DNA of 64,000 nucleotides from Geodermatophilus sabuli (lineage in GTDB: Bacteria > Actinomycetota > Actinomycetes > Mycobacteriales > Geodermatophilaceae). The notes beneath the pieces were generated by a model. It made no database searches. It had not been told where the DNA came from and saw only the letters and a list, made by a program, of their open reading frames with translations. Position numbers and translations under genes: made by a program. The stretch is from the NCBI RefSeq assembly GCF_900215145.1, contig NZ_OBDO01000008.1, positions 186,001 to 250,000 on the forward strand, written 5' to 3'. Every line of letters begins with the position of its first letter. Position 1 is the stretch's first letter. Positions 30,841 to 47,394 of this stretch are shown piece after piece.

Positions 30841-32514
30841 CTAGCCGAAGATGAGCACCCCGAGGACCGTCGCGACCACCAGACCGGCCATGACCGGCAG
30901 GAAGCAGCGGCGGGCCAGCTCGACCGCGGGCACCCGGACGAACCCGGCGACGGCGAGCAGCGAGGACCAGGCGACGAGCGTGCCGCCGCCGGACCAGATG
31001 TTGCCCATCTGACCGATGGCCGCCAGCGTCGGGCTGCTGACGCCCGCCCCCTCGGACAGCGAGCCGGCCAGCGCACCGGTGAGCGGCAGGCCGGAGAAGC
31101 CCGACCCGTCCAGACCGGCGACGACGCCGACGATCATCACGCCGAAGGCGGTCAGCAGGGCGTTCGCCGGCAGCTGATCCTGGCCGGCCACCACCAGGTC
31201 GAACAGCAGGTTCGGCGCCGGCTCGCCCTCGGGGATGCTGAGGATGGTGGCGGCGAACTCCTCGTTGCCCAGGAAGAAGAAGCCGGCGATCGGGAGGACG
31301 ACGCCCATCGCCTTGAACGCGAACACCAGCCCGTCGACGATGTGGTCGGCCGAGGTCTCCAGGAACTTGTTGCCGCCCCGGGCGTAGGCCGCACCGAACG
31401 TGACCAGCAGCGCGATACCGCCCACGAGCGCCGCGGCGTCGCCGCCCTGGAGATCGGGGACCGAGTCCGAGACGCTGGCCACGACCAGGTAGACGATCAG
31501 CGCCAGGTAGGCCAGCGGCACCAGGAGCGCGAACGCCTTGGAGGCCAGCGGCTTCTCCACCGGGGTGATGGTGTGCCCCTCCGGCGGGACCGGCCCGCCG
31601 GCCGGGGTGCCGATCAGCGCACGCCCCTTGCTCAAGCGGGCCGCGATGGTCTCCGCCTCGTCACGGGGCCGGCTCCCCGAGCCGCTGGCCACCCCGACCA
31701 GCTCGCGCTGCCCGCCGACCGACGGGCCACCGCCACCGGTCCCGTCCGCGGGCAGGCCGGCGCCGCCGGAGCCACCGGTCCCACCCTGGTCGCTCGCGTC
31801 CTCGATCGCCTCGGCGTCAGCGCTGTCGCTGCGCCGGTCGGCGGCGTTCTCCCACTCGGAGAGCAGGTCCTCGGAGGGCCGCCGCATCTTGCGGATCTCC
31901 ATGATGTAGCCGATGGCCAGCGCGACACCGCCGACGATGAGCGACAGGACCAGGCCCCGATCGGCCACCACCGCCGGGTCCGCGTTGGCCGCCGTGGCCG
32001 ACAGCTGCGGCGCGACCCCGATGACGTAGTCGGCGGACAGTGCCATCCCCTGGCCGGCGATCGCGATGGTGAAACCCACCGCCAGCGGGCGCAGGCCCGA
32101 GCGGATGGCGACCGGCACCAGCACCGCACCGACCAGCGGGACGGCCGGGGTCGGCCAGAAGAACAGCGAGATGAAGTACGTGACGATGACGAGCGTCCAC
32201 CAGGACAGGTGCGCGTTGCGCATGACCCGGCGGAACGGGGTCACCATCCGCTTGTCCGATCCCAGCCCCTCCAGCGACCGCAGCATCGCGGTGACCATCG
32301 CGATGATCAGGAAGATGTTGAACAGGCTGGTCGCGGCGACCAGGCTGGCGTTGAAGACCGACGACAGACCGGTCGCGAGACTCCCCGACCACACGAGAGC
32401 GGTGAGGAACGTGGCCACCACTGCCGGCACCACGATGTTCTTGCGCATGATCATCGTGGCGAGGATGACGACCACCCCGGCCAGGAAGACCCAGTGCGCT
32501 GCTGTGAGTTGCAT
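30841..32514 (-). CDS. Polytopic membrane transporter, unidentified family (paralogue of 34304-35995)
   Basis: 557 residues starting MQLTAAHWVFLAGVVVI, with about 12-14 membrane segments in two halves. The halves are joined by a ~110-residue hydrophilic loop (about 215-325), rich in Gly, Ser and acidic residues. Conserved blocks shared with its paralogue are SLFFWPTPAVPLVGA, IAIAGQGMALSADYVIGVAP and GLDGSGFSGLPLTGALA; the last resembles loops of ion-transporter-superfamily permeases. Substrate unknown; a carboxylate or amide is only a guess. It is divergent from the MFS gene across 172 bases containing TGTGCACA. Confidence 0.75.
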   Translation of the reverse strand: MQLTAAHWVFLAGVVVILATMIMRKNIVVPAVVATFLTALVWSGSLATGLSSVFNASLVAATSLFNIFLIIAMVTAMLRSLEGLGSDKRMVTPFRRVMRNAHLSWWTLVIVTYFISLFFWPTPAVPLVGAVLVPVAIRSGLRPLAVGFTIAIAGQGMALSADYVIGVAPQLSATAANADPAVVADRGLVLSLIVGGVALAIGYIMEIRKMRRPSEDLLSEWENAADRRSDSADAEAIEDASDQGGTGGSGGAGLPADGTGGGGPSVGGQRELVGVASGSGSRPRDEAETIAARLSKGRALIGTPAGGPVPPEGHTITPVEKPLASKAFALLVPLAYLALIVYLVVASVSDSVPDLQGGDAAALVGGIALLVTFGAAYARGGNKFLETSADHIVDGLVFAFKAMGVVLPIAGFFFLGNEEFAATILSIPEGEPAPNLLFDLVVAGQDQLPANALLTAFGVMIVGVVAGLDGSGFSGLPLTGALAGSLSEGAGVSSPTLAAIGQMGNIWSGGGTLVAWSSLLAVAGFVRVPAVELARRCFLPVMAGLVVATVLGVLIFG

Positions 32515-32686
32515 CGACGCCCCTACTGGTGAGCCCAATGTGTTGGTGCAGAAAGCTCCCTGACCGGGCAGACGCCGTCCATGAACGATGTGCACACTCG
32601 CCCCATCTCCGAATGTGCAGCCTGCCGTGGCTCCGTTCACGGCACGTTGGCAGTCTGTTCCCGGGAAGTGAACGGGGAGGACGTCT

Positions 32687-34099
32687 GTGACCGGCACCGC
32701 GACGCAGTACGGCCGACCCCAGGCTGAGCCGACCGGTCCCCCGCGGGCCGGCTGGTTGCTCGCCGCCCTGCTCGGCGCCACGTTCCTCGGCACGGTCAGC
32801 AACAACGTCGTCAACGTGCCGCTGCGCCAGATCACCGACGACTACGGCGCCCCGGTCACCCAGGGCGTGCTGGTCGCCTCCGCGTCGGTGCTCGTCCTGG
32901 CCGTGGCCATGCCGCTCACCGGTTGGATCAGCGACCGACTCGGCCGCCGCCGCACCCTCGTGCTCGCCCTCGTGGTGCTCCTCGTCGGCACCGTCGGCGC
33001 CGCGGTCGCGCCCACGCTGCCCACCCTCGTGGTCAGCCGTGCCGTGCAGGGGCTGGGCTGCGCCCTGGTCCCGACCGCCGTCATGGGCACCCTCGCCCGG
33101 TGCTGGCCGGCCAGCCGGCGCAACCGGGTCATGGGCGCGTGGGGCACGGCCAACGGCATCGGCCAGGCCGTGGGCCCACCGGTCGGCGGCCTGCTCGCCG
33201 ACGGCTGGGGGTGGCGGTCGATCTTCTGGGTCCTGGTGCCGGTGACCGTGGCGGTGCTGGTCCTCGCCGTGAGCGTCGTCCCTCGGGACGGCGGGTCGCG
33301 CACCCCGATCGACGTCCCCGGGGTGGGCTCGCTGACCCTCGGCGTCGCCGCGCTTATGGCGGCGATCACCGTGGCTCCGCAGGGCGGCGTCCCGGGGTGG
33401 GTTCCCCTGGCCGGGGTGGTCCTCGGGGTGGCGGCGCTGGTCGCGTTCGTCGTCTCCGGGCTGCGCCGCGCTCAGCCCTTCATCGACCCGCGGCTGCTCA
33501 TCGAGATCCGCTGGCTGCGCAGCGCCACGGGCGTCTTCGTGCAGCAGGTCACGCTGTTCTCCGTCCTGGTCGCCGTGCCCCTGCACCTGACCGGCGTCGC
33601 CGGGCTGTCGGGCACCGCGACCGGTCTGCTGGTCTTCCTCCTGCCAGTGGTGTGGGCGGCGTCGGCCCCGGTGGTCGGCCTGCTCGCCGACCGGATCGGC
33701 CCGCGGCCGGTGCTGCGGACCGGCCTCGGCGTGCTGCTCACCGTCTCCGTCGTCCTCGGCGTGCTCCTGGGCACGGGAGCGACGGCGGTGCTGCCGATGG
33801 CGGTCGTCCTGGTGGTGGCCGGGTTCGGGGTCGCGCTGGTGCAGACGCCGTCGCTCAGCGGGGCCACCCGCTCGCCGGCCGGTCAGCGGGGCGCCGGGCT
33901 GGGACTGTTCAACATGATGCGGTTCGTCGGCGCCTCCGTGGGCGCGGCCGGGGTCGCCGCCGCCTACCCCGACGCGCTCGGCTGGCTGTTCGGGGGGTGT
34001 GGGGTGGTCGCCGCGGCTGGGTTGGCGCTCAGCTTCGCCGGACGAGAGGTACCCGACACCCCCGCCGGCGAACCGGCACCGGAGCTCACCGCCGGCTGA
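32687..34099 (+). CDS. MFS transporter, drug:H+ antiporter type (DHA2-like)
   Basis: 470 residues with 12-14 predicted membrane segments. Motif A is clear (GWISDRLGRRRTLVLALV), as are VSRAVQGLGCALVPTAVMG and NGIGQAVGPPVGGLLAD, the motif C-like antiporter stretch. It should export a small molecule against protons. The GTG at 32687 follows GGGGAGG (32674-32680). It sits between two paralogous transporters and does not overlap either. Confidence 0.87.
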   Translation: MTGTATQYGRPQAEPTGPPRAGWLLAALLGATFLGTVSNNVVNVPLRQITDDYGAPVTQGVLVASASVLVLAVAMPLTGWISDRLGRRRTLVLALVVLLVGTVGAAVAPTLPTLVVSRAVQGLGCALVPTAVMGTLARCWPASRRNRVMGAWGTANGIGQAVGPPVGGLLADGWGWRSIFWVLVPVTVAVLVLAVSVVPRDGGSRTPIDVPGVGSLTLGVAALMAAITVAPQGGVPGWVPLAGVVLGVAALVAFVVSGLRRAQPFIDPRLLIEIRWLRSATGVFVQQVTLFSVLVAVPLHLTGVAGLSGTATGLLVFLLPVVWAASAPVVGLLADRIGPRPVLRTGLGVLLTVSVVLGVLLGTGATAVLPMAVVLVVAGFGVALVQTPSLSGATRSPAGQRGAGLGLFNMMRFVGASVGAAGVAAAYPDALGWLFGGCGVVAAAGLALSFAGREVPDTPAGEPAPELTAG

Positions 34100-34128: not shown

Positions 34129-34299
34129 CGTGCACAAATCGCGAGGTGAGCAGTGGGCACCGTGCTGGTGATCTAGGTCACGGTCACCGCTAGCTTTCGG
34201 CGAACGGCCACCCGGGGTCACGGGGGGCCCGCCCGTCCCACTGTCCGGCCCGGTCGACCACCAGCTCCGGCGGCCGAGCCCCGTGCACGAATCGGGAGG
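34129..34299 (+). repeat. Two 18-bp direct repeats in the leader of the second transporter
   Basis: CGTGCACAAATCGCGAGG (34129-34146) and CGTGCACGAATCGGGAGG (34282-34299) match at 16 of 18 bases and are 153 bp apart. The second copy carries the ribosome site of the gene at 34304. GTGCAC also occurs as TGTGCACA (32589-32596) before the paralogous transporter. This is either a shared operator half-site or a leader duplication. Confidence 0.5.
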
Positions 34300-34303
34300 C
34301 ACC

Positions 34304-35995
34304 ATGCAGTTGACGGCCGCTCACTGGGTCTACGTGGCAGGAGTCGCGTCACTGATCGCCGTGATGCTGATGCGGAAGAACGTGGTCGTCCCGGCGATCA
34401 TCGCGACGTTCGTGACGACCTGGCTGTTCACCGGGGACTTCCTCAACGGCCTGGGCTCGGTCTTCAGCGCGAGCATGGTCGCGACCACCGAGCTGCTGAG
34501 CATCTTCCTGGTGCTCACCGTCGTCACCGCCCTGCTGGGCGCCCTGCGGGCGGTCGGAGCCGATCGGCGCATGATCGCGCCGCTGGCCCGGCTCATGAAG
34601 AACGGGCCCGTCTCCTACATCGCCCTGTTCGTGGTCACCTACCTGCTCTCGCTCGTCTTCTGGCCCACGCCGACGCTCGCCCTGGTCGCCGCCACGCTCC
34701 TGCCTGCGGCGATCGCGGCCGGGCTCTCCCCGCTGGGCGCGGCCATGGCCATCGCCATCGCCGGTCAGGGCATGGCGCTCGCCTCCGACTACGTCATCGG
34801 TGTCGCCCCGAGCCTCTCGGCGGGTGGCGCCGGGGTCCCGGCCGGGGAGATCGCCGACCGGGCGCTGGTCCTGAGCCTGGTCGTCGGCGGTGTGGCCATC
34901 ACGATGACCTGGTTCATGCACGTGCGTCGCGGCTCGCGCAGCGACGTGCTGCCCGGCTCCGGTACCGCGCGGGACGGCGGCCTGGCGACGCTGACGGCCC
35001 GGCGGGTCAGCCTCGCGGACATCCCGGCGACCGTCGGGGCCGCGCTCACGACCAAGGGCGAGCCGCTGCGGGTTCGCTCCGGCGGCACGGCCACCGCGAC
35101 CGACGTCGTCGGCGGCAACGGCACGGGCAACGGCTCGGGCAACGGGCACGGCCCGGTCAGCGGGAACGGCTCGGGCAACGGGCACGGCCCCGCCGGAGGC
35201 GACGGGCACGTCGGCAACGGGCACGGGCCGACCGGCGACAGCGGCTCCCTCGCCACCGGGGACGACGGCGGGACCGCCGCGCCGCTGCGGACCCGGCACG
35301 CCCGCCTCTACGCGATCGCCGTCCCGCTCGCGTTCGCCGTGCTGGTGGCCTACCTGCTCCTCGGCAAGGCCACCGATCTGGTGCCCGAGGTCGAGGCCGG
35401 CTGGGGCGCCGCCCTGGTCGGTGGACTGGCCCTCCTGCTCATGCTGGGCGTCACGACCTCCTCCGGTGGCAACGGTCTCGAGCGGGCCGGTGAGCACTTC
35501 GTCGACGGCCTGGTCTTCGCCTTCCGCGCCATGGGGGTGGTGATCCCGGTGGCCGGGTTCGTGCTCGTGGGCATCTCCGACTTCGCCGGCCGCATCATGC
35601 TGCTGCCCGAGGACGCCGCGGCGCCGGGCTTCCTGTTCGACGTCATCTCCAGCGGAGAGCGGTTCATCCCGGACAACTCCGTGGTCGTCATGTTCGCGAT
35701 GCTGATCGCCGGCATGCTCATCGGCCTGGACGGCTCCGGCTGGGCCGGGCTGCCCTTCACCGGTTCCATGGCCGACGCGTTCGCCTCCTCCTCCGGTGGG
35801 GACACCGCGACCCTCGCGGCCATCGCGCAGAACGCGGCGGGCTGGACCGGCGGCGGCACGCTGATCATCTGGTCCTCGTTGATCGCCGTCGCCGGCCTCA
35901 CCGGGGTCCCGGTCACCACGCTGGCGAGGAAGCTCTTCATCCCGGTCGTGACCGGCCTGGTCCTCAGCGTCGTCGTCGCCGCGGTGATCTGGTGA
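34304..35995 (+). CDS. Polytopic membrane transporter, paralogue of 30841-32514, with Gly/Asn/His-rich loop
   Basis: 563 residues starting MQLTAAHWVYVAGVASL, in the same layout as the other paralogue: about seven segments, a long cytoplasmic loop, then about seven more. Shared blocks are LVFWPTPTLALVAA, IAIAGQGMALASDYVIGVAP and GLDGSGWAGLPFTGSMA. The loop (about 270-315) repeats GNGSGNGHGP-like units, and the DNA there repeats GGCAACGGGCACGGCCC. GGGAGG at 34294-34299 precedes the ATG. It overlaps the amidase start by 4 bases, so it likely imports the amidase substrate (inference). Confidence 0.75.
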   Translation: MQLTAAHWVYVAGVASLIAVMLMRKNVVVPAIIATFVTTWLFTGDFLNGLGSVFSASMVATTELLSIFLVLTVVTALLGALRAVGADRRMIAPLARLMKNGPVSYIALFVVTYLLSLVFWPTPTLALVAATLLPAAIAAGLSPLGAAMAIAIAGQGMALASDYVIGVAPSLSAGGAGVPAGEIADRALVLSLVVGGVAITMTWFMHVRRGSRSDVLPGSGTARDGGLATLTARRVSLADIPATVGAALTTKGEPLRVRSGGTATATDVVGGNGTGNGSGNGHGPVSGNGSGNGHGPAGGDGHVGNGHGPTGDSGSLATGDDGGTAAPLRTRHARLYAIAVPLAFAVLVAYLLLGKATDLVPEVEAGWGAALVGGLALLLMLGVTTSSGGNGLERAGEHFVDGLVFAFRAMGVVIPVAGFVLVGISDFAGRIMLLPEDAAAPGFLFDVISSGERFIPDNSVVVMFAMLIAGMLIGLDGSGWAGLPFTGSMADAFASSSGGDTATLAAIAQNAAGWTGGGTLIIWSSLIAVAGLTGVPVTTLARKLFIPVVTGLVLSVVVAAVIW

Positions 35996-37362
35996 GCCGG
36001 ACGACGGTGCGCGGCACCGCCGCCGACGTCCGTTCCGGGCGGCGCTCGCCGCTGGAGGTGCTCGAGGCGTCGCTGGACCGGGTCCGGGCCGTCGACCCGG
36101 TCGTCCGGGCGTTCGTCTCGATCGACGGGGACCAGGTGCGGGCGGAGGCCGCGGCCCTCACCGAGGAGGCGGCACACGGGCGGTTCCGGGGGCCGCTGCA
36201 CGGCGTGCCGATCGCGGTCAAGGACCTCATCGACGTGCGCGGCCACCCCACCCGCGGCGGTTCGCTGGTGACCGAGGACGCCCCGGCGACGCGCGACGCC
36301 CCGGCGGTGCACCGGCTGCGCGCGGCGGGCGCGCTCGTGCTCGGCAAGACGACGACCCACGAGTTCGCCCACGGTGTCACCACCCCGCCCACACGCAACC
36401 CGTGGGACCCCACCCGGATCCCCGGCGGCTCCAGCGGCGGCTCCGCGGCGGCGGTGGCCTCCGGGCAGGTCCCGGCCGCGCTGGGCAGCGACACCGGGGG
36501 GTCGATCCGCGTCCCCGCGGCACTGTGCGGGGTGTCCGGCCTGCGGCCCCGGCCGGCCGACGTCCCCACCGGCGGGTGCCTGCCGTTCTCCCCGAAGCTG
36601 GACACCTGTGGTCCGATCGCTGGGGACGCCGAGGACCTCGCCCTCCTCTTCGCGGTGCTCGGGCAGGCCCCCTGCCCGCTGATCCCGTCGGTCGCCGGCC
36701 TGCGGCTGGGCACCGTGCCGCCCGCGGCGCTCGGGGACGTCGACGCCGAGGTCCTGGCGGCGGTCGAGTCGGCGGTGGGGGTCCTCGTCGCGGAGGGCGC
36801 CGTCCCCGTGCCGGTGGACGTCCCGCCGTTCCCGGAGTGGAGTGCGCCCCGGACCGTCTACGTGCTGTCGGACTTCCTCGCCGTCCACCGCGGTGCGGGC
36901 TGGTACCCCGCCCGCCGGGAGCACTACGGGGAGGAGGTGGCCTCCTACCTCACCCTGGCGGAGCGGATCACGCGGCACGAGCGCGAGGCCGCCGTCCGGG
37001 AGCTCGAACGCCTGGAGGGCCTGCTGCGCGCGGCACTCGAGGACGTCGACGCGCTGGTCCTGCCGACCACGGCCGTCGCCGCGCCGACGATCGAGGAGTG
37101 CGCGTTCCGGCCGGGCGACGCCGGACGTTCGCCGGTCGTGGGCACGCTCATGCGGCTGTGCGGGCCGTTCAGCTGGTGCGGGTTCGCCGTCGTGAGCGTG
37201 CCGTGCGGCGCCACCGCCGACGGCCGGCCGATCGGGGTGCAGGTCGTCGGCCGCGACGTCCCGACGGTGCTGGGGGTCGCCGCCCGGTACCAGGCACGCA
37301 CCGACCACCACCTGCGGACTCCCTCACCGGCCCCTGCGCCCGCAGGAGCGGGCGGTCCCTAG
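35992..37362 (+). CDS. Amidase signature family enzyme
   Basis: 456 residues of the amidase signature family. The Ser-cisSer-Lys triad is visible: Lys in AVKDLIDV, the cis-Ser in GSDTGGSIR and the nucleophile region in GGSSGGSAAAVASG. It hydrolyses an amide or carbamoyl bond in the cytoplasm. The GTG at 35992 sits in a GTGA overlap with the upstream transporter, suggesting that uptake and hydrolysis are coupled. It is not a GatA: no gatB/gatC gene is near and the C-terminal half is divergent. Substrate unknown. Confidence 0.88.
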   Translation: MSRTTVRGTAADVRSGRRSPLEVLEASLDRVRAVDPVVRAFVSIDGDQVRAEAAALTEEAAHGRFRGPLHGVPIAVKDLIDVRGHPTRGGSLVTEDAPATRDAPAVHRLRAAGALVLGKTTTHEFAHGVTTPPTRNPWDPTRIPGGSSGGSAAAVASGQVPAALGSDTGGSIRVPAALCGVSGLRPRPADVPTGGCLPFSPKLDTCGPIAGDAEDLALLFAVLGQAPCPLIPSVAGLRLGTVPPAALGDVDAEVLAAVESAVGVLVAEGAVPVPVDVPPFPEWSAPRTVYVLSDFLAVHRGAGWYPARREHYGEEVASYLTLAERITRHEREAAVRELERLEGLLRAALEDVDALVLPTTAVAAPTIEECAFRPGDAGRSPVVGTLMRLCGPFSWCGFAVVSVPCGATADGRPIGVQVVGRDVPTVLGVAARYQARTDHHLRTPSPAPAPAGAGGP

Positions 37363-37402: not shown

Positions 37403-37409
37403 CGTGGTG

Positions 37410-37724: not shown

Positions 37725-37738
37725 GGGGCAACTCCTGG

Positions 37739-38339: not shown

Positions 38340-38348
38340 GCGCGGCGC

Positions 38349-40055
38349 TCACTCCGGGCCGACCACCCGGTCGACCTCGGCGCTGGTGTCGGCCAGCAGG
38401 TCGAGGGTGTGCGCCAGCCACACGGTGAACTGGTTCTCCGCCTGCCGCAGGTCCATGCCGAGCAGCCGGGAGGCCCGGTCGAGCTTGTAGAGCATCGTGT
38501 TCCGGTGGATGTGCAGGTCGCGCGAGGCGGCGTTCACGTTCCCGCCGGCGGAGACGTAGGCCAGCACGGTCGCCTCCAGCTCACCGGCGCTGGCGTCCCG
38601 CAGCGGCGCCAGGACGTCGGAGGCGAAGGAGCGCCCGGTGCGGCTGGCCGCGACGTCCTCCAGGACGGCGTGCACCCGCAGCTCCTGGTAGCCGCAGACC
38701 GGCCGCAGCCCGAGCCGTCCCTGCAGCCCGTGGGCCAGCCGCGCCTCGCGGTAGCTGTCGGGGATGGCCAGCGCGCCGACCACCGGGCGCCCGTAGGCCA
38801 CGCGCACCGGGCGCCCGCCCTGGTCCTTGCGGCCGCCGAGCCACCGGTGCAGCGCGGTCGCGTACTCCGCGACGACGTCCATCGCGGCGTCGGGGGTGCT
38901 CATGGAGCCGCGGCGGGCCGCCTCCCGGACCACCACGAGCACATCGCCGACCATGGCCGCCTGCGTGTGCCGCTCCTGCTCGGGCAGCAACCGCGCCGCC
39001 TGGGTGGCCAGGGCCTGCAGCCGGCCCGGCGCGTCGACGTCGGCCGGGGTGGCGACCCCCGAGGCCACGATGACACCGAACCAGGACCGCACCGGGAAGC
39101 CGTAGTGCGTGGCGCGGGCGCTGATGTCCTCGACGGTGCCGAACCGGCCGTGCAGCAGGCCGTGGACGAAGTCGCCGCGGGCCTGCTCCTGGGCCCGCTG
39201 CACGCTGCGCAGCCGCAGCATCTCGGTGCCGATGATCGGCGCGGCCTGCTCGACGAGGACCCGGTGCTCGGCGAGGTCGTGCGGGTGCGGGTCGTCGGTC
39301 TCCTCGAGCAGCAGGATCCAGCCGTCGTGCCGGCCACCGAGCACGATCGGGGTCAGCACGCACGACAGCTCACGCGCGCCGAGGGTGAACGGCGCCAGCC
39401 TCGGGTGCAGCTCGGTCGGCTCGCCGGTGGCACCCAGCGCCTCGGCCTGCGCACGGAAGGCCGCGACGAGGTCGGGGGCCTCCACGGTGCGGGGCTGCCG
39501 CTGTTCCAGGGCGGCCAGGTGGCCCTGGGTGTCGAAGACGGCGACCGGCCGCTGCGACATCCGCGCCATCTGGCTGCACAGCGCCGACAGCTCCGCGCCG
39601 CGGTAGAGCAGCTCGGCCAGCGCGCGGTGCACGGCCAGCCCGTACCGGAGGACGTGCGTCTCGCGGGCCAGGGTGAGGTCGGCGACCAGTCGGTTGAGGA
39701 CGGCGAAGGGCACCGCGTCGGCCATGGTCGCCAGGGGCAGCCGGGCCGCGGCCGCCGCGTCCCCCGGGTCGGCGGCGTGCCCGTCGACCAGCAGCGCCGC
39801 CGCCCCGAGCTCGGCCAGCCTCCCGGCGGCGTCGGCCAGGGACGAGCCGGAGGCGGCCAGGTCCGCGGCGTGGGCGTGCACGAGCACCCCGGTGAGCGGC
39901 TCCTCCTGGCTGAGCGCGACCGCCCAGGGGGTCACCCAGTCCAGCCGGGTGACCGCCCCCGTGCGCCCGGCGTGGATGCGCGCCCGGCGCAGCGCCGGCT
40001 CCTGCAGCAGCCGGGCGAGGGTCAGCGCGTCGTCGGAGTGGGGGTGCGGCACCAC
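38349..40055 (-). CDS. PucR/CdaR-family transcriptional regulator
   Basis: 568 residues. An N-terminal PucR-type ligand domain (about 8-130) begins LTLARLLQEPALRRARI, a GAF-like middle follows, then the CdaR C-terminal HTH (about 500-555) with YVSAGGNVNAASRDLHIHRN and LDRASRLLG. The HTH is typical of regulators of purine, amide or glycolate catabolism. The start is GTG at 40053-40055 (a second GTG follows directly). It is divergent from the DUF336 gene across 162 bases, the obvious target, and could also control the neighbouring transporter/amidase or diiron-oxygenase operons (inference). Confidence 0.87.
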   Translation of the reverse strand: MVPHPHSDDALTLARLLQEPALRRARIHAGRTGAVTRLDWVTPWAVALSQEEPLTGVLVHAHAADLAASGSSLADAAGRLAELGAAALLVDGHAADPGDAAAAARLPLATMADAVPFAVLNRLVADLTLARETHVLRYGLAVHRALAELLYRGAELSALCSQMARMSQRPVAVFDTQGHLAALEQRQPRTVEAPDLVAAFRAQAEALGATGEPTELHPRLAPFTLGARELSCVLTPIVLGGRHDGWILLLEETDDPHPHDLAEHRVLVEQAAPIIGTEMLRLRSVQRAQEQARGDFVHGLLHGRFGTVEDISARATHYGFPVRSWFGVIVASGVATPADVDAPGRLQALATQAARLLPEQERHTQAAMVGDVLVVVREAARRGSMSTPDAAMDVVAEYATALHRWLGGRKDQGGRPVRVAYGRPVVGALAIPDSYREARLAHGLQGRLGLRPVCGYQELRVHAVLEDVAASRTGRSFASDVLAPLRDASAGELEATVLAYVSAGGNVNAASRDLHIHRNTMLYKLDRASRLLGMDLRQAENQFTVWLAHTLDLLADTSAEVDRVVGPE

Positions 40056-40217
40056 GGATCCCTTCGGTCAGAGTGCACAAGGTCGCACCGAGTTGTCACG
40101 GCAGTCTCACCATTGTCGGGGCGTCCGTCCAGCGCGGAGGGTGGATCCACGCCGCCCCCACTTCCGCGGGGGACGGCAGCCGTCGACCCGGTCCCCGCGC
40201 CGGAGGAGGAGAACCCC

Positions 40218-40673
40218 GTGCACCAGGTCTTCCGCATCACCCTCGATGACGCCCTGCCGATGCTGGCCGCCGCCCGCGCGAAGGCCGAGGAGATCGGCGT
40301 CAAGCAGACGATCTGCGTCTGCGACGACGGCGGCAACGTGCTGGCGCTGCACCGGCTGCCCGGTGCCCGCCTGACGGGCGTGGAGATCTCCATGGCCAAG
40401 GCGTTCACCGCCGCCGGCCACGAGCGGGCCACGCACCTGTTCAACGAGCCCCCGAACGGCCCGGCGCTGCCGGGCAACGAGGCCTTCGGCATCGCGCACA
40501 TGCTCCCGGGCAAGTTCGCGATCTTCGTCGGCGGCTTCCCGATCGTGCACGAGGGCCAGATCGTCGGCGGCGTCGGCGTGAGCGGCGGTAACGGCGAGCA
40601 GGACAAGGCGGTGGGCGCGGCGGCGCTGGAGGCCTTCGCCGAGCACGTGACGCAGGACCCGGCGCTGGTCTGA
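40218..40673 (+). CDS. GlcG/HbpS-family (DUF336) protein
   Basis: 151 residues of the GlcG/HbpS-like fold: LDDALPMLAAARAKAEEIG, VCDDGGNVLALHRLPGAR and MAKAFTAAGHERAT, ending with an IVGGVGVSGGNGEQDKAVG loop. Members bind heme or cobalamin-like ligands or accompany diol and glycolate metabolism. The GTG at 40218 follows GGAGGAGGAG. It is divergent from the PucR gene. The last codons (QDPALV-stop) form the first unit of a 27-bp tandem array that continues past the stop. Confidence 0.85.
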   Translation: MHQVFRITLDDALPMLAAARAKAEEIGVKQTICVCDDGGNVLALHRLPGARLTGVEISMAKAFTAAGHERATHLFNEPPNGPALPGNEAFGIAHMLPGKFAIFVGGFPIVHEGQIVGGVGVSGGNGEQDKAVGAAALEAFAEHVTQDPALV

Positions 40674-40777
40674 ACAGCGCAGGACTCGGCGCTCGTCTGA
40701 GGAGCGCAGGACTCGGCGCTCGTCTGAACAGCGCAGGACCCGGCGCTCGTCTGAGGAGCGCAGGACCCGGCGCTGGT
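40670..40777. repeat. 27-bp tandem repeat, four copies, starting at a stop codon
   Basis: Units start at 40670, 40697, 40724 and 40751, each 27 bp and beginning CTGA (A or G) (A or C or G). They differ at a few sites in an alternating pattern: AACAGC in units 1 and 3, GAGAGC-like in 2 and 4. A partial fifth begins at 40778. The sequence is homologous to the 3' end of the DUF336 gene (GCAGGACCCGGCGCTGGT-CTGA), so the array is a terminal duplication of coding DNA. It has no spacers, so it is not a CRISPR array. Confidence 0.9.
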
Positions 40778-40790
40778 CTGAGCGGCGGTT

Positions 40791-40838
40791 GCACGGGGAA
40801 CGCCCCATCCGGACGTCCGGATGGGGCATTTCCCGTGC
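40791..40838. terminator. Bidirectional terminator
   Basis: Outer stem GCACGGG (40791-40797) pairs with CCCGTGC (40832-40838). The inner 13-bp arms (40802-40814 and 40815-40827) are perfectly complementary around GGACGTCC. It lies between the DUF336 gene with its repeat and the convergent RidA gene. Confidence 0.85.
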
Positions 40839-40856
40839 ATCGTCTCGGAGCTGGGG

Positions 40857-41378
40857 TCAGGCCGAGGCGCCGACGGCGGCGACGAGCTCCACCTCGACGG
40901 GGGCGCCCGAGGGCAGCGTGCGGACGCCCACCGCGCTGCGGGCCACGATGCCCCGCTCCCCCAGCCGCTCCCGCAGCACCGCCGAGGCACCGTCGGCGAC
41001 CGCCGGGTGCTGGGTGAAGCCGTCGACGGCGGCGACGAAGACGGTGAGCTTGAGCGCCCGCACCCCACCGAGGTCGCCGACGGTCTCGGCGATCGCGGTC
41101 AGCGCGTTGCCGATGGCCAGGCCCGCGGCCTCGCGGGCGGTGGCGAGGTCGACGTCGGCCCCGACCACGCCGCGCACGACCAGCTCGCCGGCGCGGCGGG
41201 GGGTCATCCCGGCTGTCCACACGAGGTCGCCGTGGACGACGGCCGGCACGTAGTCCCCTTGCGGCGGGACGGCCGTGCGCGCCCGGTCAGACGGTGTCCG
41301 CCGGTCTGCCTCCGCGCCCCGGTCCGCTCCTCGCTCGCTGGCGCTCGCTGCGATGCTCCCGCGGCTGTCGTCAGACAC
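40857..41378 (-). CDS. RidA/YjgF-family protein
   Basis: About 173 residues from the GTG at 41376-41378, which overlaps the GGT stop by 8 bases. The recognisable RidA domain starts at PPQGDYVPAVVHGDLVWTAG and ends PSGAPVEVELVAAVGASA. RidA enzymes hydrolyse reactive enamines and imines made during amine metabolism. The first ~40 residues (AADRGAEADRR-type) are low-complexity and may be untranslated; the only later in-frame start (GTG at 41249) would cut the first strand of the fold. It is the last gene of the seven-gene operon that begins at 47394. Confidence 0.75.
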   Translation of the reverse strand: MSDDSRGSIAASASERGADRGAEADRRTPSDRARTAVPPQGDYVPAVVHGDLVWTAGMTPRRAGELVVRGVVGADVDLATAREAAGLAIGNALTAIAETVGDLGGVRALKLTVFVAAVDGFTQHPAVADGASAVLRERLGERGIVARSAVGVRTLPSGAPVEVELVAAVGASA

Positions 41379-42996
41379 CGAGCGCCACCCCGTCCTGCCG
41401 CGGGTCGGCACCGCCGGCCAGCACGCCGCGGGACTCGTCGACCGAGACCACCAGCGCGCTGCCACCCGCGCCCCACGCCCCGCACGGTCGGACGTCGTGG
41501 CCGCGGTCGGCCAGCCCGGCCAGCGTGTCCGCGCCCAGCCGGGTCTCGCACTGCAGCGTCTCCGGGGCGCCGAGGGCATCGGCGTCGCTGCCCGGGTGCA
41601 CGGTGAACCGCGGCGCGGCGACCGCGGCCTGCGGGTCGAGGCCGCCGTCGACCAGGTGCGAGATGACCTGGGTGTTCCACTGCACCTGGCCGTCGCCGCC
41701 CGGGGTGTTGCCCACGTGCCGCAGCCGGCCCGACCCGTCGGTGAGCACCCAGGCGTTGAGGGTGTGCAGCGGCTTGCGCCGGGGGGCCAGCGCGTTCGGG
41801 TGCCCGGGCACGAGGTAAGCGCCGCGGCCGAGCCGGTTGTTGAGCGCGATGCCGGTGCCCGGGATCGCGATGCGGGCGCCGAAGGTGAACGCCAGCGACG
41901 AGATCGCGCTGACCGCCCGCCCCTCGGCGTCCACGGCGACGCAGCTGGTGGTGTCCCCGGCCATGCCGACGCCACCGGCGACCAGCGGCTGGTGCTCCAG
42001 TCCGGCGCGGGCGGCCGCGAGCGCGTCGGCGGTGAGCAGCGTGCGCCAGGTGTCGGTGTCGGCGGCGCAGGACTCGTAGCGGTCCCGGAACGCCCGCCGG
42101 GCCGCCAGCGCCATCAGGTGGACGGCGTCGGCGCCGAGGGTGGGCAGGTCGAGCAGCTGTCCGTCGAGCAGGCCGGCCTGCTGCAGCACCATCCAGCCCG
42201 GGGAGGGCGGTGGCGTCTGGTGGAGCACGAGGTCGCCGTAGCGGGCGGTGATCGACGGCTCGGCCGGCGCGTCCGCGCCCAGCGCCCACTCGTCGCCGGA
42301 GAACGGCGCCCCGCCGGCGCGCAGCAGGGCGACGGCCTGCTCCGCCAGCGATCCGGAGTACAGCGCGAGGGGGTCGATGGCGAGCGCCTCGATGCTGTCG
42401 GCGAGCTCGAACGCCGGCAGCCGGTCACCGACCTCCGGCACCCGCCCCGAGGGGAGCAGCCACCGGGCCAGCCCCTCGTCGGCGGCCAGGGAGCCGGCGT
42501 GCTCGGCGATGTCGGCCCGGTTCTTCACCGTGCACGGCAGGCCGGCCCGGGCGGCGGTGACGACCGGCGCCCACAGCTCGGCCAGCGACCGGGTGCCGCC
42601 GCGGGCGTGCAGGGTGTGCAGCGCGGCCATCGCGCCGGGGGTGGAGACGGCGCGGGCGCCGCCCATCGGCAGCGCGGTCAGCCCCTCGTCGAGGTAGCCC
42701 TCGGCGGTGGCGCCGTCCGGGCCGTAACCGCTGCCGTTGACCGTCCACACCCGGCCGTCGGGCTCGCGAACGACGGCGAAGGCGTCACCCCCGATGCCGC
42801 ACTGCCCGGGCAGGGACAGCCAGGCCATCGCGGTCATCGCCAGCGCCGCGTCCACCGCCGTGCCACCGTCGGCCAGGACGCGGGCGCCGAGCTGGCTGGC
42901 CACCGGCGAGCTGCTGGTGACCATGCCGCCCGCGGCGATCGTCGGCCCGCGCCCGGCCTCGTCCTCCGGCGACCAGGTGCCCCCCGCGCCGGCCAC
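41371..42996 (-). CDS. Gamma-glutamyltransferase family protein
   Basis: 541 residues of the gamma-glutamyltranspeptidase/Ntn-hydrolase family. The N-terminus has GGMVTSSSPVASQLGARVLA and GQCGIGGDAFAVV. The autocleavage site reads MAGDTTSCVAVD, where the second Thr is the nucleophile exposed on the small subunit; GNTPGGDGQVQWN is the conserved small-subunit loop. There is no signal peptide, so it is probably cytoplasmic and may cleave or transfer gamma-glutamyl groups inside the cell. It starts in a one-base overlap with the second Rieske gene (TAGTG). Confidence 0.87.
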   Translation of the reverse strand: MAGAGGTWSPEDEAGRGPTIAAGGMVTSSSPVASQLGARVLADGGTAVDAALAMTAMAWLSLPGQCGIGGDAFAVVREPDGRVWTVNGSGYGPDGATAEGYLDEGLTALPMGGARAVSTPGAMAALHTLHARGGTRSLAELWAPVVTAARAGLPCTVKNRADIAEHAGSLAADEGLARWLLPSGRVPEVGDRLPAFELADSIEALAIDPLALYSGSLAEQAVALLRAGGAPFSGDEWALGADAPAEPSITARYGDLVLHQTPPPSPGWMVLQQAGLLDGQLLDLPTLGADAVHLMALAARRAFRDRYESCAADTDTWRTLLTADALAAARAGLEHQPLVAGGVGMAGDTTSCVAVDAEGRAVSAISSLAFTFGARIAIPGTGIALNNRLGRGAYLVPGHPNALAPRRKPLHTLNAWVLTDGSGRLRHVGNTPGGDGQVQWNTQVISHLVDGGLDPQAAVAAPRFTVHPGSDADALGAPETLQCETRLGADTLAGLADRGHDVRPCGAWGAGGSALVVSVDESRGVLAGGADPRQDGVALGV

Positions 42997-43430
42997 TAGT
43001 CCGCCGCCGGTGGCCGGCGACGCCGCGGGCCGCCCTCCAGGACGTCGCGCTCGGAGATGCCGACGAGCACCTGGCCGTCCTCCTCGCGCACCGGGTAGGT
43101 GCGGATGGGCTCGGTGGCCGGGGGCTGGATCGGCTGGCCGGTCTCCAGCTCGAAGACGCTGTTGTGGCAGGAACAGCGGATGCCGTCGTCCTGCAGCTTG
43201 CCGGAGCTGAGCAGGCAGTCCAGGTGGGTGCAGTAGTTGCTGGTCGCGTAGGCCTTGCCGTCCAGCCGGGCCAGCGCCAGCTCCAGCTGGCCGTGCTCGG
43301 TCTCGGCGTAGAAGCGGCGCACGTAGCCGTTGGGCACCTGCCCGGCGCGACAGATCCGCACGAAGGCGCACTCGGTGCTGGCCGCCGCCAGTTCCTCGTC
43401 GGTGGCCGCGACGGGCCGGTTCTCGGTCAT
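42996..43430 (-). CDS. Rieske [2Fe-2S] protein (second Rieske of the cluster)
   Basis: 144 residues with one Rieske domain. The cluster ligands are in CTHLDC (Cys and His) and CSCHNSVF (Cys-x-x-His). The segment before them (YVRRFYAETEHGQLELALAR) resembles the N-terminal part of nitrite-reductase-like small Rieske proteins. It is probably an electron carrier for the oxygenase or another redox enzyme. It starts in a 4-base overlap with the aldehyde dehydrogenase stop and overlaps the GGT gene by one base. Confidence 0.85.
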   Translation of the reverse strand: MTENRPVAATDEELAAASTECAFVRICRAGQVPNGYVRRFYAETEHGQLELALARLDGKAYATSNYCTHLDCLLSSGKLQDDGIRCSCHNSVFELETGQPIQPPATEPIRTYPVREEDGQVLVGISERDVLEGGPRRRRPPAAD

Positions 43431-44887
43431 GCGCTCAGGTAGACGGTCTTGTCGACCGTGTAGAAGGCCATCATCGCTTCTCCTGCCTGTTCCTTCGAGG
43501 TCTGCGTGCTGCTGTCCTTGAGGCCGCCGAACGGTGCGTTCATGGCCTGTCCGGTGGTGGTCTGGTTGATCTTCACGAGGCCGGCGGGGACCTCCCGGGC
43601 GAACCGGAGGGCGCGGCCGACGTCGGCGGTGACGATCGCCGCCGAGAGCCCGTAGCGGGTGGCGCCGGCGAGTTCGATCGCCTCGTCGAACGAGCCGACC
43701 CGCAGGAACGCCAGCACCGGGCCGAAGACCTCCTCGGTGGCGAGCGCGGAGCCGGGGTCGACATCGGCGAAGACCGTGGGCCGCACGAAGTGGCCGTGCG
43801 CGAGGGCGGGGTCGTCCTCGCCGGGGTCGCCGGGGCCGCCGACGACCAGCCGGGCACCGTCGTCCAGGGCCCGGCGGACGTGGCCCAGCACCGACTCCTT
43901 CTGCCGGGCGGTGGCCTGCGGGCCGACGTCCACGCCGGATTCCAGGCCGTGCCCGAGCCGCAGCGCGGCCGCCTTGGCAGCGACCCGCTCCAGCAGCGCG
44001 TCGTGCACCGCATCGTGGACCAGTACCCGGCTGGTGCCGGTGCAGGCCTGGCCGGACAGACCGAACGCGCCCTTGGCGATGAGGGTCGCGGCGCGGTCGA
44101 GGTCGGCGTCCTCCAGGACGACGACGGGGTTCTTGCCGCCCATCTCCAGCTGGGTGCGCTGGCTGGCCCGCACCACCCGGTGGATCGACTCCCCCACCGC
44201 GGTCGAGCCGGTGAAGGTGATCGCGCCCACCCGGTCGTCGGCGACCAGCGCCTGCGACACCTCCGCCCCGCCGTGGAGGACGGCGAGCGCGCCGGCCGGC
44301 ACCCCGCCCTCGAGGAGCGCGTCGACCAGGCGCTGACCGAGCAGCGGGGTGACCTCGCTGGGCTTGAAGACGACGCCGTTGCCTGCGGCCAGGGCCGGGC
44401 CGAGCTTGCGGGACGGGATGTTGAGCGGGAAGTTCCACGGCGTGATCGCGGCGACCACGCCCACCGGGGACCGGCTGGTGAACACCAGGCTGCCGTCGCC
44501 GGTGGGCAGGGTCTGCCCGGCGGTCCGCAGCGCCTCCCCGGCGTAGAAGCGCAGGTTCAGCGGGGTGCGGGAGACCTCCATGGTGGCCTCGGCGCGGGTC
44601 TTGCCCTCCTCGCGGACCAGCTCCTCGACGAGGGTGTCGCGCTGGGACTCCAGCACGTCGGCGGCCTTCTCCAGCGCCCGGCCGCGCTTCTCCGGGGCGG
44701 TGTCCGCCCACTGCGACCAGCCGGCGAGGACCGCGGAGACCGCGGCGTCGGCGTCCTTGGCGTCGGACTCGGGGTGGACGCTGACCACCTGGCGGTCGTC
44801 GCCGGGGTCGCGGCGCTCGCGGGCCCGGCCGGTGACCGACTCGACCCACTGGCCGTCGATCAGGTTGCGCACGGTGCGGGGGTCCAT
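43427..44887 (-). CDS. Aldehyde dehydrogenase
   Basis: 486 residues, full length for the NAD(P)-dependent aldehyde dehydrogenase superfamily. The catalytic Glu is in LEMGGKNP and the nucleophile Cys in SGQACTGTSR; the cofactor loop reads FTGSTAVGESI, and WNFPLNIPSRKLGPALAAGN is also conserved. The SGQACTGTSR and KSSTQTSKEQ pattern resembles alpha-ketoglutaric-semialdehyde-dehydrogenase-like enzymes. It should oxidise an aldehyde released by the oxygenase step (inference). Overlaps: one base with the reductase stop, 4 bases with the second Rieske start. Confidence 0.9.
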   Translation of the reverse strand: MDPRTVRNLIDGQWVESVTGRARERRDPGDDRQVVSVHPESDAKDADAAVSAVLAGWSQWADTAPEKRGRALEKAADVLESQRDTLVEELVREEGKTRAEATMEVSRTPLNLRFYAGEALRTAGQTLPTGDGSLVFTSRSPVGVVAAITPWNFPLNIPSRKLGPALAAGNGVVFKPSEVTPLLGQRLVDALLEGGVPAGALAVLHGGAEVSQALVADDRVGAITFTGSTAVGESIHRVVRASQRTQLEMGGKNPVVVLEDADLDRAATLIAKGAFGLSGQACTGTSRVLVHDAVHDALLERVAAKAAALRLGHGLESGVDVGPQATARQKESVLGHVRRALDDGARLVVGGPGDPGEDDPALAHGHFVRPTVFADVDPGSALATEEVFGPVLAFLRVGSFDEAIELAGATRYGLSAAIVTADVGRALRFAREVPAGLVKINQTTTGQAMNAPFGGLKDSSTQTSKEQAGEAMMAFYTVDKTVYLSA

Positions 44888-46119
44888 CAGACCGGCACCT
44901 CCTCGAACTCCAGGAGCTCCTCGAGCTCGACGGACTCGTCGGCCAGCCGCTCGGCGTCCACGGGGACGGCGAGGTCGACCAGCTCGCGGGCGACGGAGAC
45001 GTCCTCGCCGCGCTCGACGGCGGCCGCGGCGACGACCACGCCGTCGCGCAGCCAGAAGACGCTGCCGTCGAGGCCGGCGACGTCGCCGCGGACGACGACC
45101 TCGTCGCCGGGGCGGATGCCGCCGAGGCCCAGGCCCTGCACGTTGACGTCGTACTGGTCGGTCCAGAACCAGTGCGGGTCGGCGAAGACCTTGGGCCGGC
45201 CGGCGAGGGTGGAGCCGATCGCGGCGGCCTGCTGCTGGGCGACGTCGGCGTGCTCGACCCGGACCCGGCCGTAGCGGGGGTGGTCGTGGGCGGCGACGTC
45301 ACCGGCGGCGAAGACGGTGGGGATGCTGGTGCGGCCGTGCGCGTCGACCTCGACGCCGTTGCCGACGGCCAGGCCGGAGGCGAGCGCGACCTCGATGTTG
45401 GGGTCGATGCCGATGCAGACGACGAGGTCGTCGACGGTCTCGGTGCCGGTCGGCAGGGTGAGGGAGACGCCGTCGGGGCGGGCGGTGACGCCCTCGATCG
45501 GCTGCCCGAGCCGGAACTCCACCCCGCGCCGGGCGTGCAGGTCGGTGAGCGCGCGGCCGATGCCGGCGCCGAGGACGCGGCTGAGCAGCACCGGGTCGCG
45601 GTCGAGGACGACCACGTCGGCGCCGCGGCTGCGGGCGGCCGCGGCGACCTCGGTGCCGAGGAAGCCGCCGCCCAGCACGCCGATGCGGCGGCCCGGGACG
45701 AGCCGGTCGCGCAGCCGGTCGCTGTCGGCGAGCGAGCGCAGGGTGTGCACGCGGTCGCCGTCGAGGCCGGGCAGCTGCCGCGGGCGGCCGCCGGTGGCCA
45801 GCACGACCAGGTCGGCGCGGACGGCGCGGCCGTCGGTGAGCAGCACCTCGCCGGTGGCGGCGCTGATCCGCTCGACCGGGCTGCCGGTGCGGATCTCGAC
45901 GTCGTTGGCGGCGCACCAGGCGGGGTCGAGCAGCCACAGGCCGGCGTCGCCGGGGCTCGTCAGCCGCTCCTTGGAGAGCATGGGGCGCTGGTAGGGGCCG
46001 ACCGGCTCCTCGCCGAGGACGACGACGGGGCCGGCGAAACCGCGGCGGCGCAGCGCCTTGGCGGTGGCGGCGGCGACGTGGCCGGCGCCGACGACGACGA
46101 GGGTCTGTTCAGCAGTCAT
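44887..46119 (-). CDS. Ferredoxin reductase (FAD/NAD(P)H)
   Basis: 410 residues of the pyridine-nucleotide-disulphide family used as oxygenase ferredoxin reductases. FAD motif VVVGAGHVAAATAKALRRRG is at the N-terminus, ATGGRPRQLPG follows, and the NADH fold GVLGGGFLGTEVAA lies at about 150-165. The late IPTVFAAGDVAAHDHP contacts FAD. The C-terminal reductase domain is complete. It lies 10 bases after the first Rieske gene and would reduce one or both ferredoxins from NAD(P)H. Confidence 0.9.
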   Translation of the reverse strand: MTAEQTLVVVGAGHVAAATAKALRRRGFAGPVVVLGEEPVGPYQRPMLSKERLTSPGDAGLWLLDPAWCAANDVEIRTGSPVERISAATGEVLLTDGRAVRADLVVLATGGRPRQLPGLDGDRVHTLRSLADSDRLRDRLVPGRRIGVLGGGFLGTEVAAAARSRGADVVVLDRDPVLLSRVLGAGIGRALTDLHARRGVEFRLGQPIEGVTARPDGVSLTLPTGTETVDDLVVCIGIDPNIEVALASGLAVGNGVEVDAHGRTSIPTVFAAGDVAAHDHPRYGRVRVEHADVAQQQAAAIGSTLAGRPKVFADPHWFWTDQYDVNVQGLGLGGIRPGDEVVVRGDVAGLDGSVFWLRDGVVVAAAAVERGEDVSVARELVDLAVPVDAERLADESVELEELLEFEEVPV

Positions 46120-46129
46120 GGGGTGCACC

Positions 46130-46522
46130 TCAGGCGGGAGCGTCGGGCGCGCTCTCGCGCCGGGGGGTGGCGGGCTCGGGGTCGAGGAGGATCGCGCCCT
46201 CGTCGGTGACCTGCACGGCGTAGGTGGCCTGGCGACCCTCCTGGTCCTCGGCCTCACCGGTGCGCGGGTCGAACCGCCACTGGTGGCCGGGGCAGATGAC
46301 CTGGCCGTTGAGGACGGTGCCCTTGGTCAGGAACCGCTCCTTGTGGACGCACACGTCGTCCATCGCGAACACCTCGTCGTCGACGAGGAACAGGGCGATC
46401 GGGCAGCCGCCGACGGTGACCTGCTTGCGCTTGCGGCGGGTGAGGTCCTTCATCTCGGCCACGTGCACCCACTCACCGGCAGTGGGAGCGGGAACGGTCG
46501 CGGGGCTCGCGGGCTGGCTCAC
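46130..46522 (-). CDS. Rieske [2Fe-2S] ferredoxin
   Basis: 130 residues with a Rieske domain: CVHKERF and CPGHQWRFD bind the cluster (C-x-H ... C-x-x-H). The short length and lack of a catalytic domain mark a ferredoxin of the BphF/NirD-like type. It is probably reduced by the flavoprotein encoded 10 bases downstream and passes electrons to the diiron protein encoded upstream. The GTG start at 46520-46522 follows GGGAGG-type DNA on the minus strand. Confidence 0.88.
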   Translation of the reverse strand: MSQPASPATVPAPTAGEWVHVAEMKDLTRRKRKQVTVGGCPIALFLVDDEVFAMDDVCVHKERFLTKGTVLNGQVICPGHQWRFDPRTGEAEDQEGRQATYAVQVTDEGAILLDPEPATPRRESAPDAPA

Positions 46523-46662
46523 GGGAGGGCCTCCGGTCGAGGTGGTGCAGGGACGCCGGTACGGGCCGGCGGGACGTTCTGGGGACGGGCGCGGGACGGC
46601 GCCGGGAGCGGGACCGGGGTGCCGGCGGGAACCGCCCGCACCCCGGTCCTGTGCGCAGCCGG

Positions 46663-47394
46663 TCAGGCGGCGCCGAGGTCCTCGGCGACGTAGGTGTCGT
46701 AGAGGGACCGGGTGTACGCGTAGCGCATCTCGGCGCCCCACCGGACGAACTGCAGGCAGCGCTGCTGCAGCTCGGGGGTGGTCGCGCCCTCGAGCACGAT
46801 CTGGAAGCCGCGCTCACCGTGCACCTCGTCGGAGGTGATGTGGAGGTCGAAGAACTCGATCTCGTCCTCGGTGAAGCCGTAGACCTCGCGCAGCGGCACG
46901 ATCTGCTTCTTGTAGATGCTCGGGACCTGCGACTTCAGGCCCACGACGAGCGCGGCGGTGGCGACGACGTAGTGCTCACGCATGGCGGTGGCGTAGCACC
47001 ACGCCTGCAGGCCCCGGGTGACGGCGTTGGCCGTGTTGGGGTCCTCGATGGCCTCGCGGGTGGTGCCGCAGGCCTCCCCGAAGCGGATCAGCAGGTCGGT
47101 GTGGCGGATGTCGGCCAGCTCCTCCTCGTACATGTTCTGGAGGAGGAAGTCCTTGGCGTCGGTCATGTGGTCGGGGGTGTTGCCGTAGATGTAGCCGAGG
47201 TAGTCGGCGAACGGCCCGACGTAGGTGTAGTGGTTCTCCGCCCAGCGGGCGAAGTGGTGGCGCTCCAGCTTTCCGTCGGCCCACGCCTTGCTGAAGGAGG
47301 CGTTCTTGGCCTCGCGGCCCTTGATGGCGTCCTGCAGGGCGACGCGGAAGTCCTCGGGGCTGAGCAGCTCGGTGCGGTCGAGCATCTGGGTCAT
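46663..47394 (-). CDS. Heme-oxygenase-like diiron oxygenase (PqqC/CADD-like)
   Basis: A 243-residue all-helical protein of the heme-oxygenase-like (TenA/PqqC/CADD) fold. Six candidate iron ligands are present: Glu91 and His98 in EEELADIRH, Glu140 in AMREHYVV, and His185, Asp189 and His192 in HITSDEVHG. The spacings E-x6-H and H-x3-D-x2-H are exactly those of the diiron protein CADD. PqqC itself and TenA do not bind iron this way, so an O2-activating diiron enzyme is the better call. It heads the seven-gene operon, 140 bases before its Rieske ferredoxin. Substrate unknown. Confidence 0.8.
   Translation of the reverse strand: MTQMLDRTELLSPEDFRVALQDAIKGREAKNASFSKAWADGKLERHHFARWAENHYTYVGPFADYLGYIYGNTPDHMTDAKDFLLQNMYEEELADIRHTDLLIRFGEACGTTREAIEDPNTANAVTRGLQAWCYATAMREHYVVATAALVVGLKSQVPSIYKKQIVPLREVYGFTEDEIEFFDLHITSDEVHGERGFQIVLEGATTPELQQRCLQFVRWGAEMRYAYTRSLYDTYVAEDLGAA

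Follow-up and report, generated by a model that had tools for sequence, protein, structure and literature searches.

Gene content and organization of the locus

The 64-kb window of the Geodermatophilus sabuli genome analysed here, that is, the whole 64,000-nucleotide stretch (G+C content 74%) in which all positions below are counted, carries a set of genes centred on a heme-oxygenase-like diiron-type enzyme (HDO). Seven minus-strand genes, which an earlier note on this DNA had assigned to named families, were all found with the open reading frame list, Pfam and NCBIfam. From HDO onwards, they encode the HDO itself (46663..47394; 243 amino acids; PF14518, 116 bits against a cut-off of 28.9), a Rieske [2Fe-2S] ferredoxin, Rieske-1 (46130..46522; 130 amino acids; PF00355, 63.8 bits), an FAD/NAD ferredoxin reductase of the AndAa/HcaD type (44887..46119; 410 amino acids; PF07992 and PF14759), an aldehyde dehydrogenase (ALDH; 43427..44887; 486 amino acids; PF00171), a second Rieske [2Fe-2S] ferredoxin, Rieske-2 (42996..43430; 144 amino acids; PF00355, 63.3 bits), an Ntn hydrolase of the gamma-glutamyltransferase (GGT) superfamily (41371..42996; 541 amino acids; PF01019, 285.7 bits) and a RidA-like protein of the Rid family (40857..41378; 173 amino acids; PF01042). 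Four junctions are overlaps, as that note had described (1 base for reductase/ALDH, 4 for ALDH/Rieske-2, 1 for Rieske-2/GGT and 8 for GGT/Rid), and that of Rieske-1 and reductase is a 10-base gap; the sixth, which it had left out, is a 140-base gap between HDO and Rieske-1, given the likely GTG start of the latter at 46522, while a longer Rieske-1 reading frame from 46741 would overlap HDO by 79 bases. The overlapping GTG start at the GGT/Rid junction is also open in four relatives. This junction also holds a ~90-base dispersed repeat (41283-41376), for which the genome has about 57 further matches and which forms the first ~30 codons in the Rid reading frame; it is missing from the short junction of four relatives (L013, L014, L021, L023).

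The earlier note had bounded the cluster at 40857 and 47394. The genes it named do lie there, but the conserved unit is larger and spans ~30841-47394. It further includes genes for a DUF336/HbpS-GlcG-like protein (40218..40673, plus strand; 151 amino acids; PF03928, 120.2 bits against a cut-off of 25), a PucR-family transcriptional regulator (38349..40055, minus strand; 568 amino acids; PF13556 and PF17853 above and PF07905 below cut-off), two copies of an unnamed transporter family, namely permease 1 (30841..32532, minus strand; recognized from tblastn relatives and a structure model) and permease 2 (34283..35995, plus strand; matched by the A3 profile), and a DHA2-type MFS transporter (32687..34099, plus strand; NCBIfam EmrB, 188.4 bits, below the cut-off of 230.2). 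Permease 2 overlaps by 4 bases an amidase of the AtzE/indoleacetamide-hydrolase type (35992..37362, plus strand; 456 amino acids; PF01425, 303 bits, and NCBIfam), which is an optional part. On the other side, a DUF1275 membrane protein gene (47557-48276, plus strand) is divergent from HDO.

Conservation and distribution of the gene set

When bacterial and archaeal genomes were scanned with a pattern, 252 stretches encoding an HDO relative were found, of which the best 80 were used. These are 77-90% identical to the window HDO and, by record title, belong to Actinomycetota, except for one Pirellula metagenome-assembled genome whose 3-kb contig (L092) is possibly misbinned; judged by the HDO gene, the closest relative named to species is Geodermatophilus ruber (90%). 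Synteny was scored in the 59 loci of at least 20.6 kb among these 80, all of them from genomes other than the window's, the 21 shorter ones being dropped, with each locus reaching 10 kb to either side of HDO and presence defined as a tblastn match at E ≤ 1e-6. HDO, both Rieske ferredoxins and the reductase are present in 59/59 loci, Rid in 58, DUF336 in 57, and the GGT-family hydrolase and the permease family in 56 each; the counts for ALDH (58), PucR (58), MFS (54), DUF1275 (27) and amidase (7) may include paralogues, and an amidase relative of at least 60% identity occurs in just three of the seven amidase-bearing loci. Nine core genes (HDO, Rieske-1, Rieske-2, reductase, ALDH, GGT-family hydrolase, Rid, DUF336/GlcG and PucR) occur together in 54/59 loci. 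All seven minus-strand genes are found in 55, in the window's order in 43, and HDO, Rieske-1 and reductase are contiguous on one strand in every locus, with eleven arrangements overall. HDO and DUF336 have median identities of 82% and 86%, the other core genes of 40-66%. The proposal of an HDO whose electron supply is encoded with it, in a conserved cluster that also holds ALDH and an imine-handling protein, is supported; rather than being confined to one genome, an outcome for which the earlier note had allowed, the set of genes and its order turn up in many genera, more than expected by chance.

Co-occurrence in the family pointed the same way. Among 112 genomes of Geodermatophilaceae, the window's included, HDO occurs in 10. 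DUF336 matches occur in 48 of them, those at E ≤ 1e-84 being in exactly the 10 HDO-bearing genomes and the next best at E = 4e-23; Rieske-2 matches occur in 80, those at E ≤ 1e-79 being in the same 10 and the next best at E = 8.5e-20. In 72,556 plasmid records, HDO was found in six, a close DUF336 gene in the same six, and the permease in these six and one more.

Between the amidase and PucR genes lies a guanidine-III riboswitch (37737-37801, minus strand; 66.5 bits), upstream of a gene for an SMR-family protein that is likely a guanidinium exporter. This raised the idea that the pathway frees guanidine or a similar cation, which the SMR protein then exports. No SMR relative was detected at E ≤ 1e-4 in the other loci, many of which end within 10 kb of HDO, nor a riboswitch in the seven related loci scanned. 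We therefore rejected a guanidine link through these two elements, which are not conserved in the loci scanned, and regard such a function as very unlikely.

Fold and predicted metal ligands of the HDO

The AF2 model of the 243-residue protein, obtained from 47 sequences (pLDDT 86.9, pTM 0.84), matches diiron HDOs in Foldseek, the leading matches being CADD (TM 0.76-0.80), PqqC and UndA. CADD and NePabS are also the nearest solved sequences, and the score with the PqqC model TIGR02111 (36.5 bits) lies below its cut-off of 240. By fold and descent, the window protein is a member of the HDO superfamily.

Six ligands spaced as in CADD had been proposed for it: E91, H98, E140, H185, D189 and H192. 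All are present, and all are invariant in 98/98 HDO hits (97 besides the window, with some genomes reached twice, giving 84 distinct aligned sequences when the window is included), but the part of the proposal that concerns Glu140 was not confirmed. Glu142 in the ESQ(I/V)P motif of CADD, which we take to be a metal ligand, aligns each time to residue 154 (CADD 1rcw and 8va9; Nitrosomonas p-aminobenzoate (pABA) synthase 9pj4). The Glu140 column is unstable, facing a gap in 1rcw, Arg in 9pj4, or, in a second 1rcw alignment that counts against assigning the ligand to residue 154, an Asp beside a gap. Residue 154 precedes H185 by 31 positions and Glu140 does so by 45, compared to the 32 that separate Glu142 from His174 in CADD. 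Because the CADD and NePabS alignments and the spacing to the H-x3-D-x2-H motif fit, residue 154, and not Glu140, is most likely the counterpart of the third carboxylate ligand of CADD; a role for Glu140 is nevertheless possible given its invariance. CADD Tyr141, next to Glu142, is reported to lie near the metal site in the portion of the study available (PMC11965152).

Residue 154 is Glu (GAG or GAA) in 97/97 other hits, comprising 83 distinct sequences, and Lys (AAG) in the window. The HDO family thus keeps the complete predicted set of three His and three carboxylate ligands, whereas the window copy, to which a complete set had been ascribed, probably does not. Relative to its nearest relative, the window HDO has 16 amino-acid and 33 silent codon differences, and Lys154 is possibly a sequencing error. 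Substitution of the Fe ligands of AetD is reported to abolish activity (PMC10654658), and FlcD is described as functioning with one iron, so that an altered ligand set has precedent (PMC11363339; both sources as far as available).

With CADD as top fold match and CADD and NePabS as nearest solved sequences, a folate-type function as a self-sacrificing pABA synthase had to be considered. In CADD, Tyr27 is reported as the sacrificed residue and Lys152 as the donor (PMC11965152, in the part available). These fall on S35 and Q164 of the window protein, both invariant in 49 sequences, its score with the CADD model TIGR04305 is 82.3 bits for a cut-off of 200, and a protein that turns over once would have no need of the conserved reductase. 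We rejected this candidate on the two replaced residues and the model score, and consider a pABA synthase extremely unlikely.

Partner proteins

Both Rieske ferredoxins have a CxH-x16-CxxH motif, with all four cluster ligands in 59/59 relatives of each. The best NCBIfam match of the reductase is AndAa (313.8 bits, below the cut-off of 650). ALDH keeps C282 and E248 in 58/58 relatives and scores best with models of 2,5-dioxovalerate dehydrogenases (NF052305, 498.3 bits, below the cut-off of 750). In the Rid protein (TIGR00004, 27.7 bits, below the cut-off of 106.25), whose nearest structure is the Rid protein PA0814, the Arg of an ARSAVG motif is kept in 58/58 relatives and is presumably, judged by its motif, the equivalent of the catalytic R105 of E. 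coli RidA.

The GGT-family protein (TIGR00066, 199.5 bits, below the cut-off of 357.85) keeps its nucleophile, Thr349, in 56/56 relatives, and its nearest structures are 2i3o and 2nlz, one a GGT-related protein and the other named a cephalosporin acylase. The gamma-glutamyl-binding residues of E. coli GGT, which we take to be R114, N411, Q430, D433, S462 and S463, correspond, on alignment through Bacillus GGT 4y23, to S89, A369, R388, R391, H411 and T412 in the window. In the relatives the same columns hold Ser (56/56), Ala (54, with Gly in two), Arg (56/56), Arg (56/56), His (55/55) and Thr (55/55), so that the GGT residue is found at none of the six positions in any of the 55-56 relatives. 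In these alignments, the predicted gamma-glutamyl-binding residues are replaced family-wide by others that are equally conserved, which argues against a true gamma-glutamyltransferase. Since the residues that would hold a gamma-glutamyl group are lacking, the gamma-glutamyl intermediate that the earlier note had read from this gene is unsupported, and we rejected it.

The DUF336 protein has K61, S122 and D129, the equivalents of EfgA K57, S114 and D121, kept in 57/57 relatives. In the available part of the study of EfgA, a DUF336 protein that senses formaldehyde, those three residues are implicated in formaldehyde binding (PMC8153426). That precedent, and DtpC, an HDO-like Acinetobacter protein said in the accessible part of its description to protect against drying (PMC13232832), would suit a stress or detoxification function, in which HDO, ALDH and DUF336 dispose of a harmful aldehyde or oxidant and no substrate feeds the cell. 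The permease, Rid, hydrolases and PucR point instead to nutrient use, and the distribution is patchy, as the HDO counts in the family genomes indicate, which makes such a function quite unlikely, slightly more so than the biosynthetic role considered below.

NCBIfam gave no match for permease 1 or permease 2; with Pfam, a permease relative (L032) had none and permease 2 only a sub-cut-off match to TrAA12, and no solved relative was found by sequence at E < 1. The model of permease 1 (pLDDT 77.6, pTM 0.74) has a fold that weakly resembles that of the ion-transporter superfamily.

Versions in other lineages

More distant HDO loci occur in the betaproteobacteria Cupriavidus metallidurans and Caballeronia, respectively, with identities of 70% and 66% for HDO, 49% and 47% for ALDH, 63% and 54% for DUF336, and 47% and 41% for the permease. 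Both also carry a 2Fe-2S ferredoxin, an ornithine-cyclodeaminase-family (OCD) protein and a reductase. The Cupriavidus reductase scores best with models of BenC, AntC and NAD(P)H-flavin reductase, with MmoC close behind, and shares 60% identity with its Caballeronia counterpart. No relatives of the Rieske ferredoxins, GGT, Rid or PucR were found in these two stretches at E ≤ 1e-6. Adjoining the 2Fe-2S ferredoxin is a small protein, 37% identical between Cupriavidus (L093:11394-11714) and Caballeronia (L094:14072-14422) and, in the latter, with no Pfam or NCBIfam match, which is possibly an accessory part. The Caballeronia stretch additionally encodes a ring-hydroxylating dioxygenase (alpha and beta) and an amidase (L094:1110-4989), ~10-14 kb from HDO.

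In a third genome (G142, L099), HDO (76%) is clustered with a Fer2 ferredoxin, a Rieske relative (31%), a GGT-like protein, an OCD protein, DUF336 and ALDH; no permease was seen in the stretch read. Conversely, on a plasmid of Arthrobacter sulfonylureivorans (L101:9161-21654), on which the scan of plasmid records found no HDO, a permease relative lies beside a luciferase-like flavin oxygenase, a flavin reductase, an amidase, ALDH and a Rid protein, the last with an N-terminal part that by eye is TetR-like. Judged by their content, what these versions have in common is an oxygenase accompanied by its reductase, by ALDH, by an imine-handling protein and, apart from G142, by the permease. Mycobacterial loci (L069:1-3532) have a sulfatase and a sulfatase-modifying-factor-like (FGE) gene ~6-10 kb upstream of HDO, which we judged to be probably unrelated to the module.

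A proposed pathway

From gene content, conservation, co-occurrence, catalytic residues and model fold, we consider it somewhat probable that the module serves the uptake and O2-dependent breakdown of a small nitrogen-containing organic acid, with HDO as the oxygenase; its reaction, electron path, substrate class, regulation and the role of DUF336 are what we infer from that basis. The permease would bring in the nitrogen-containing acid, and the FAD reductase and a Rieske ferredoxin would relay electrons from NADH to HDO, which would oxygenate the substrate, perhaps at a C-N bond or next to one. An aldehyde product would then be oxidized by ALDH, and an imine or enamine product cleared by Rid here and by the OCD-family protein in Cupriavidus and Caballeronia. 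Amide bonds could be cut, before or after oxygenation, by the GGT-family hydrolase and by the amidase where present; the permease-2/amidase pair, itself optional, suggests that the substrate is also usable as an amide. DUF336 may bind or detect the reactive aldehyde, much as EfgA does with formaldehyde, and PucR would govern expression.

A biosynthetic role, in which HDO would build a portion of a natural product or signal exported by the MFS protein, has on its side that characterized HDOs are mainly biosynthetic, according to the available part of a 2026 review (PMC13108848), and that a DHA2 MFS relative occurs in 54/59 loci. The genes that recur in at least 54/59 loci are, however, ALDH, Rid, the GGT-family hydrolase, the permease, DUF336, PucR, MFS and the electron chain, a set that looks catabolic, although non-ribosomal peptide synthetase and polyketide synthase genes fell outside the survey and the less frequent gene clusters are mostly unannotated. 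We therefore regard biosynthesis as unlikely.

Several points, this possible biosynthetic role among them, weigh against breakdown of a nitrogen-containing acid by an active HDO. No gene of the module names a substrate. Because Glu154 is found in all other hits and Lys154 here, the window HDO may be impaired, and its dimetal function is in doubt. The loci were picked by HDO similarity, as the best 80 of 252, which favours close relatives, and across the phylum HDO is rare, occurring in two of 396 genomes, one of them the window's own. The DUF336 residues add little, because they are largely conserved across DUF336 proteins (PMC8153426, in the part available). As the permease 1 model resembles organic-anion transporters weakly (Foldseek matches MleN, TRAP, ArsB, AbgT and INDY; best TM 0.53, most 0.3-0.5), import of an organic anion is something that we can only infer. 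A scan for consensus promoters and terminators, of which few were expected by chance and which left out other promoter types, found none.

A fuller version of the proposal, which we advance tentatively and as somewhat short of an even chance, is that of a first catabolic HDO: a multi-turnover, NADH-driven enzyme acting on a nitrogen-containing, perhaps heterocyclic, carboxylate, with an obligate aldehyde-binding DUF336 partner and a transporter family not yet named, and found across both Actinomycetota and Burkholderiales, where electron chains and imine-handling enzymes can replace one another. If true, it would be a new entry reaction for the breakdown of nitrogen compounds, give a pathway context to a DUF336 protein that matches its oxygenase in conservation, and indicate a likely substrate class for the unnamed transporter family. 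To our knowledge, natural redox partners are known for few HDOs, and an HDO conserved together with a dedicated ferredoxin and reductase would offer a natural electron chain open to testing. In the part available, the 2026 review counts about a dozen characterized HDOs, names none in catabolism, and gives MboB as the redox partner of MboA (PMC13108848). Among the top-ranked matches in the open-access literature, searched for the gene set, a substrate, DUF336 and CADD, with most subscription journals lying outside the scope of the search, no paper on the gene set was found. Altogether, the HDO module is well conserved and apparently undescribed.

Comparison with known systems

With the HDOs UndA, BesC, SznF, HrmI, AetD and CADD, the window protein shares the PF14518 fold and the E-x6-H and H-x3-D-x2-H motifs, and the 97 other hits likewise have the third Glu, in contrast to the Lys of the window copy. 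The module differs from these known enzymes in its conserved electron chain, of the Rieske/FAD or BenC type, in its catabolic-type neighbours and in its DUF336 partner. CADD and NePabS come nearest in sequence and lead the Foldseek matches, but Ser35 and Gln164 and a score below the family cut-off set the window protein apart from them.

Outside HDOs, AibH1H2 of Rhodococcus wratislaviensis is reportedly a three-component monooxygenase with a partner ferredoxin and reductase; like the module, it is a dimetal oxygenase other than a Rieske oxygenase that is fed by such a pair, but its oxygenase fold is related to amidohydrolases and not to HDOs. Rut-type uracil catabolism combines an oxygenase, an amide hydrolase and a RidA-type protein in one operon. 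We know of no HDO or DUF336 protein in rut; it is the Arthrobacter plasmid variant, with its luciferase-like oxygenase, that compares with it. With EfgA and other DUF336 proteins, finally, the window protein shares PF03928 and the equivalents of K57, S114 and D121, residues that are described as largely conserved family-wide in the available part of the EfgA study (PMC8153426), but it belongs to a DUF336 clade of its own that is tied to HDO.

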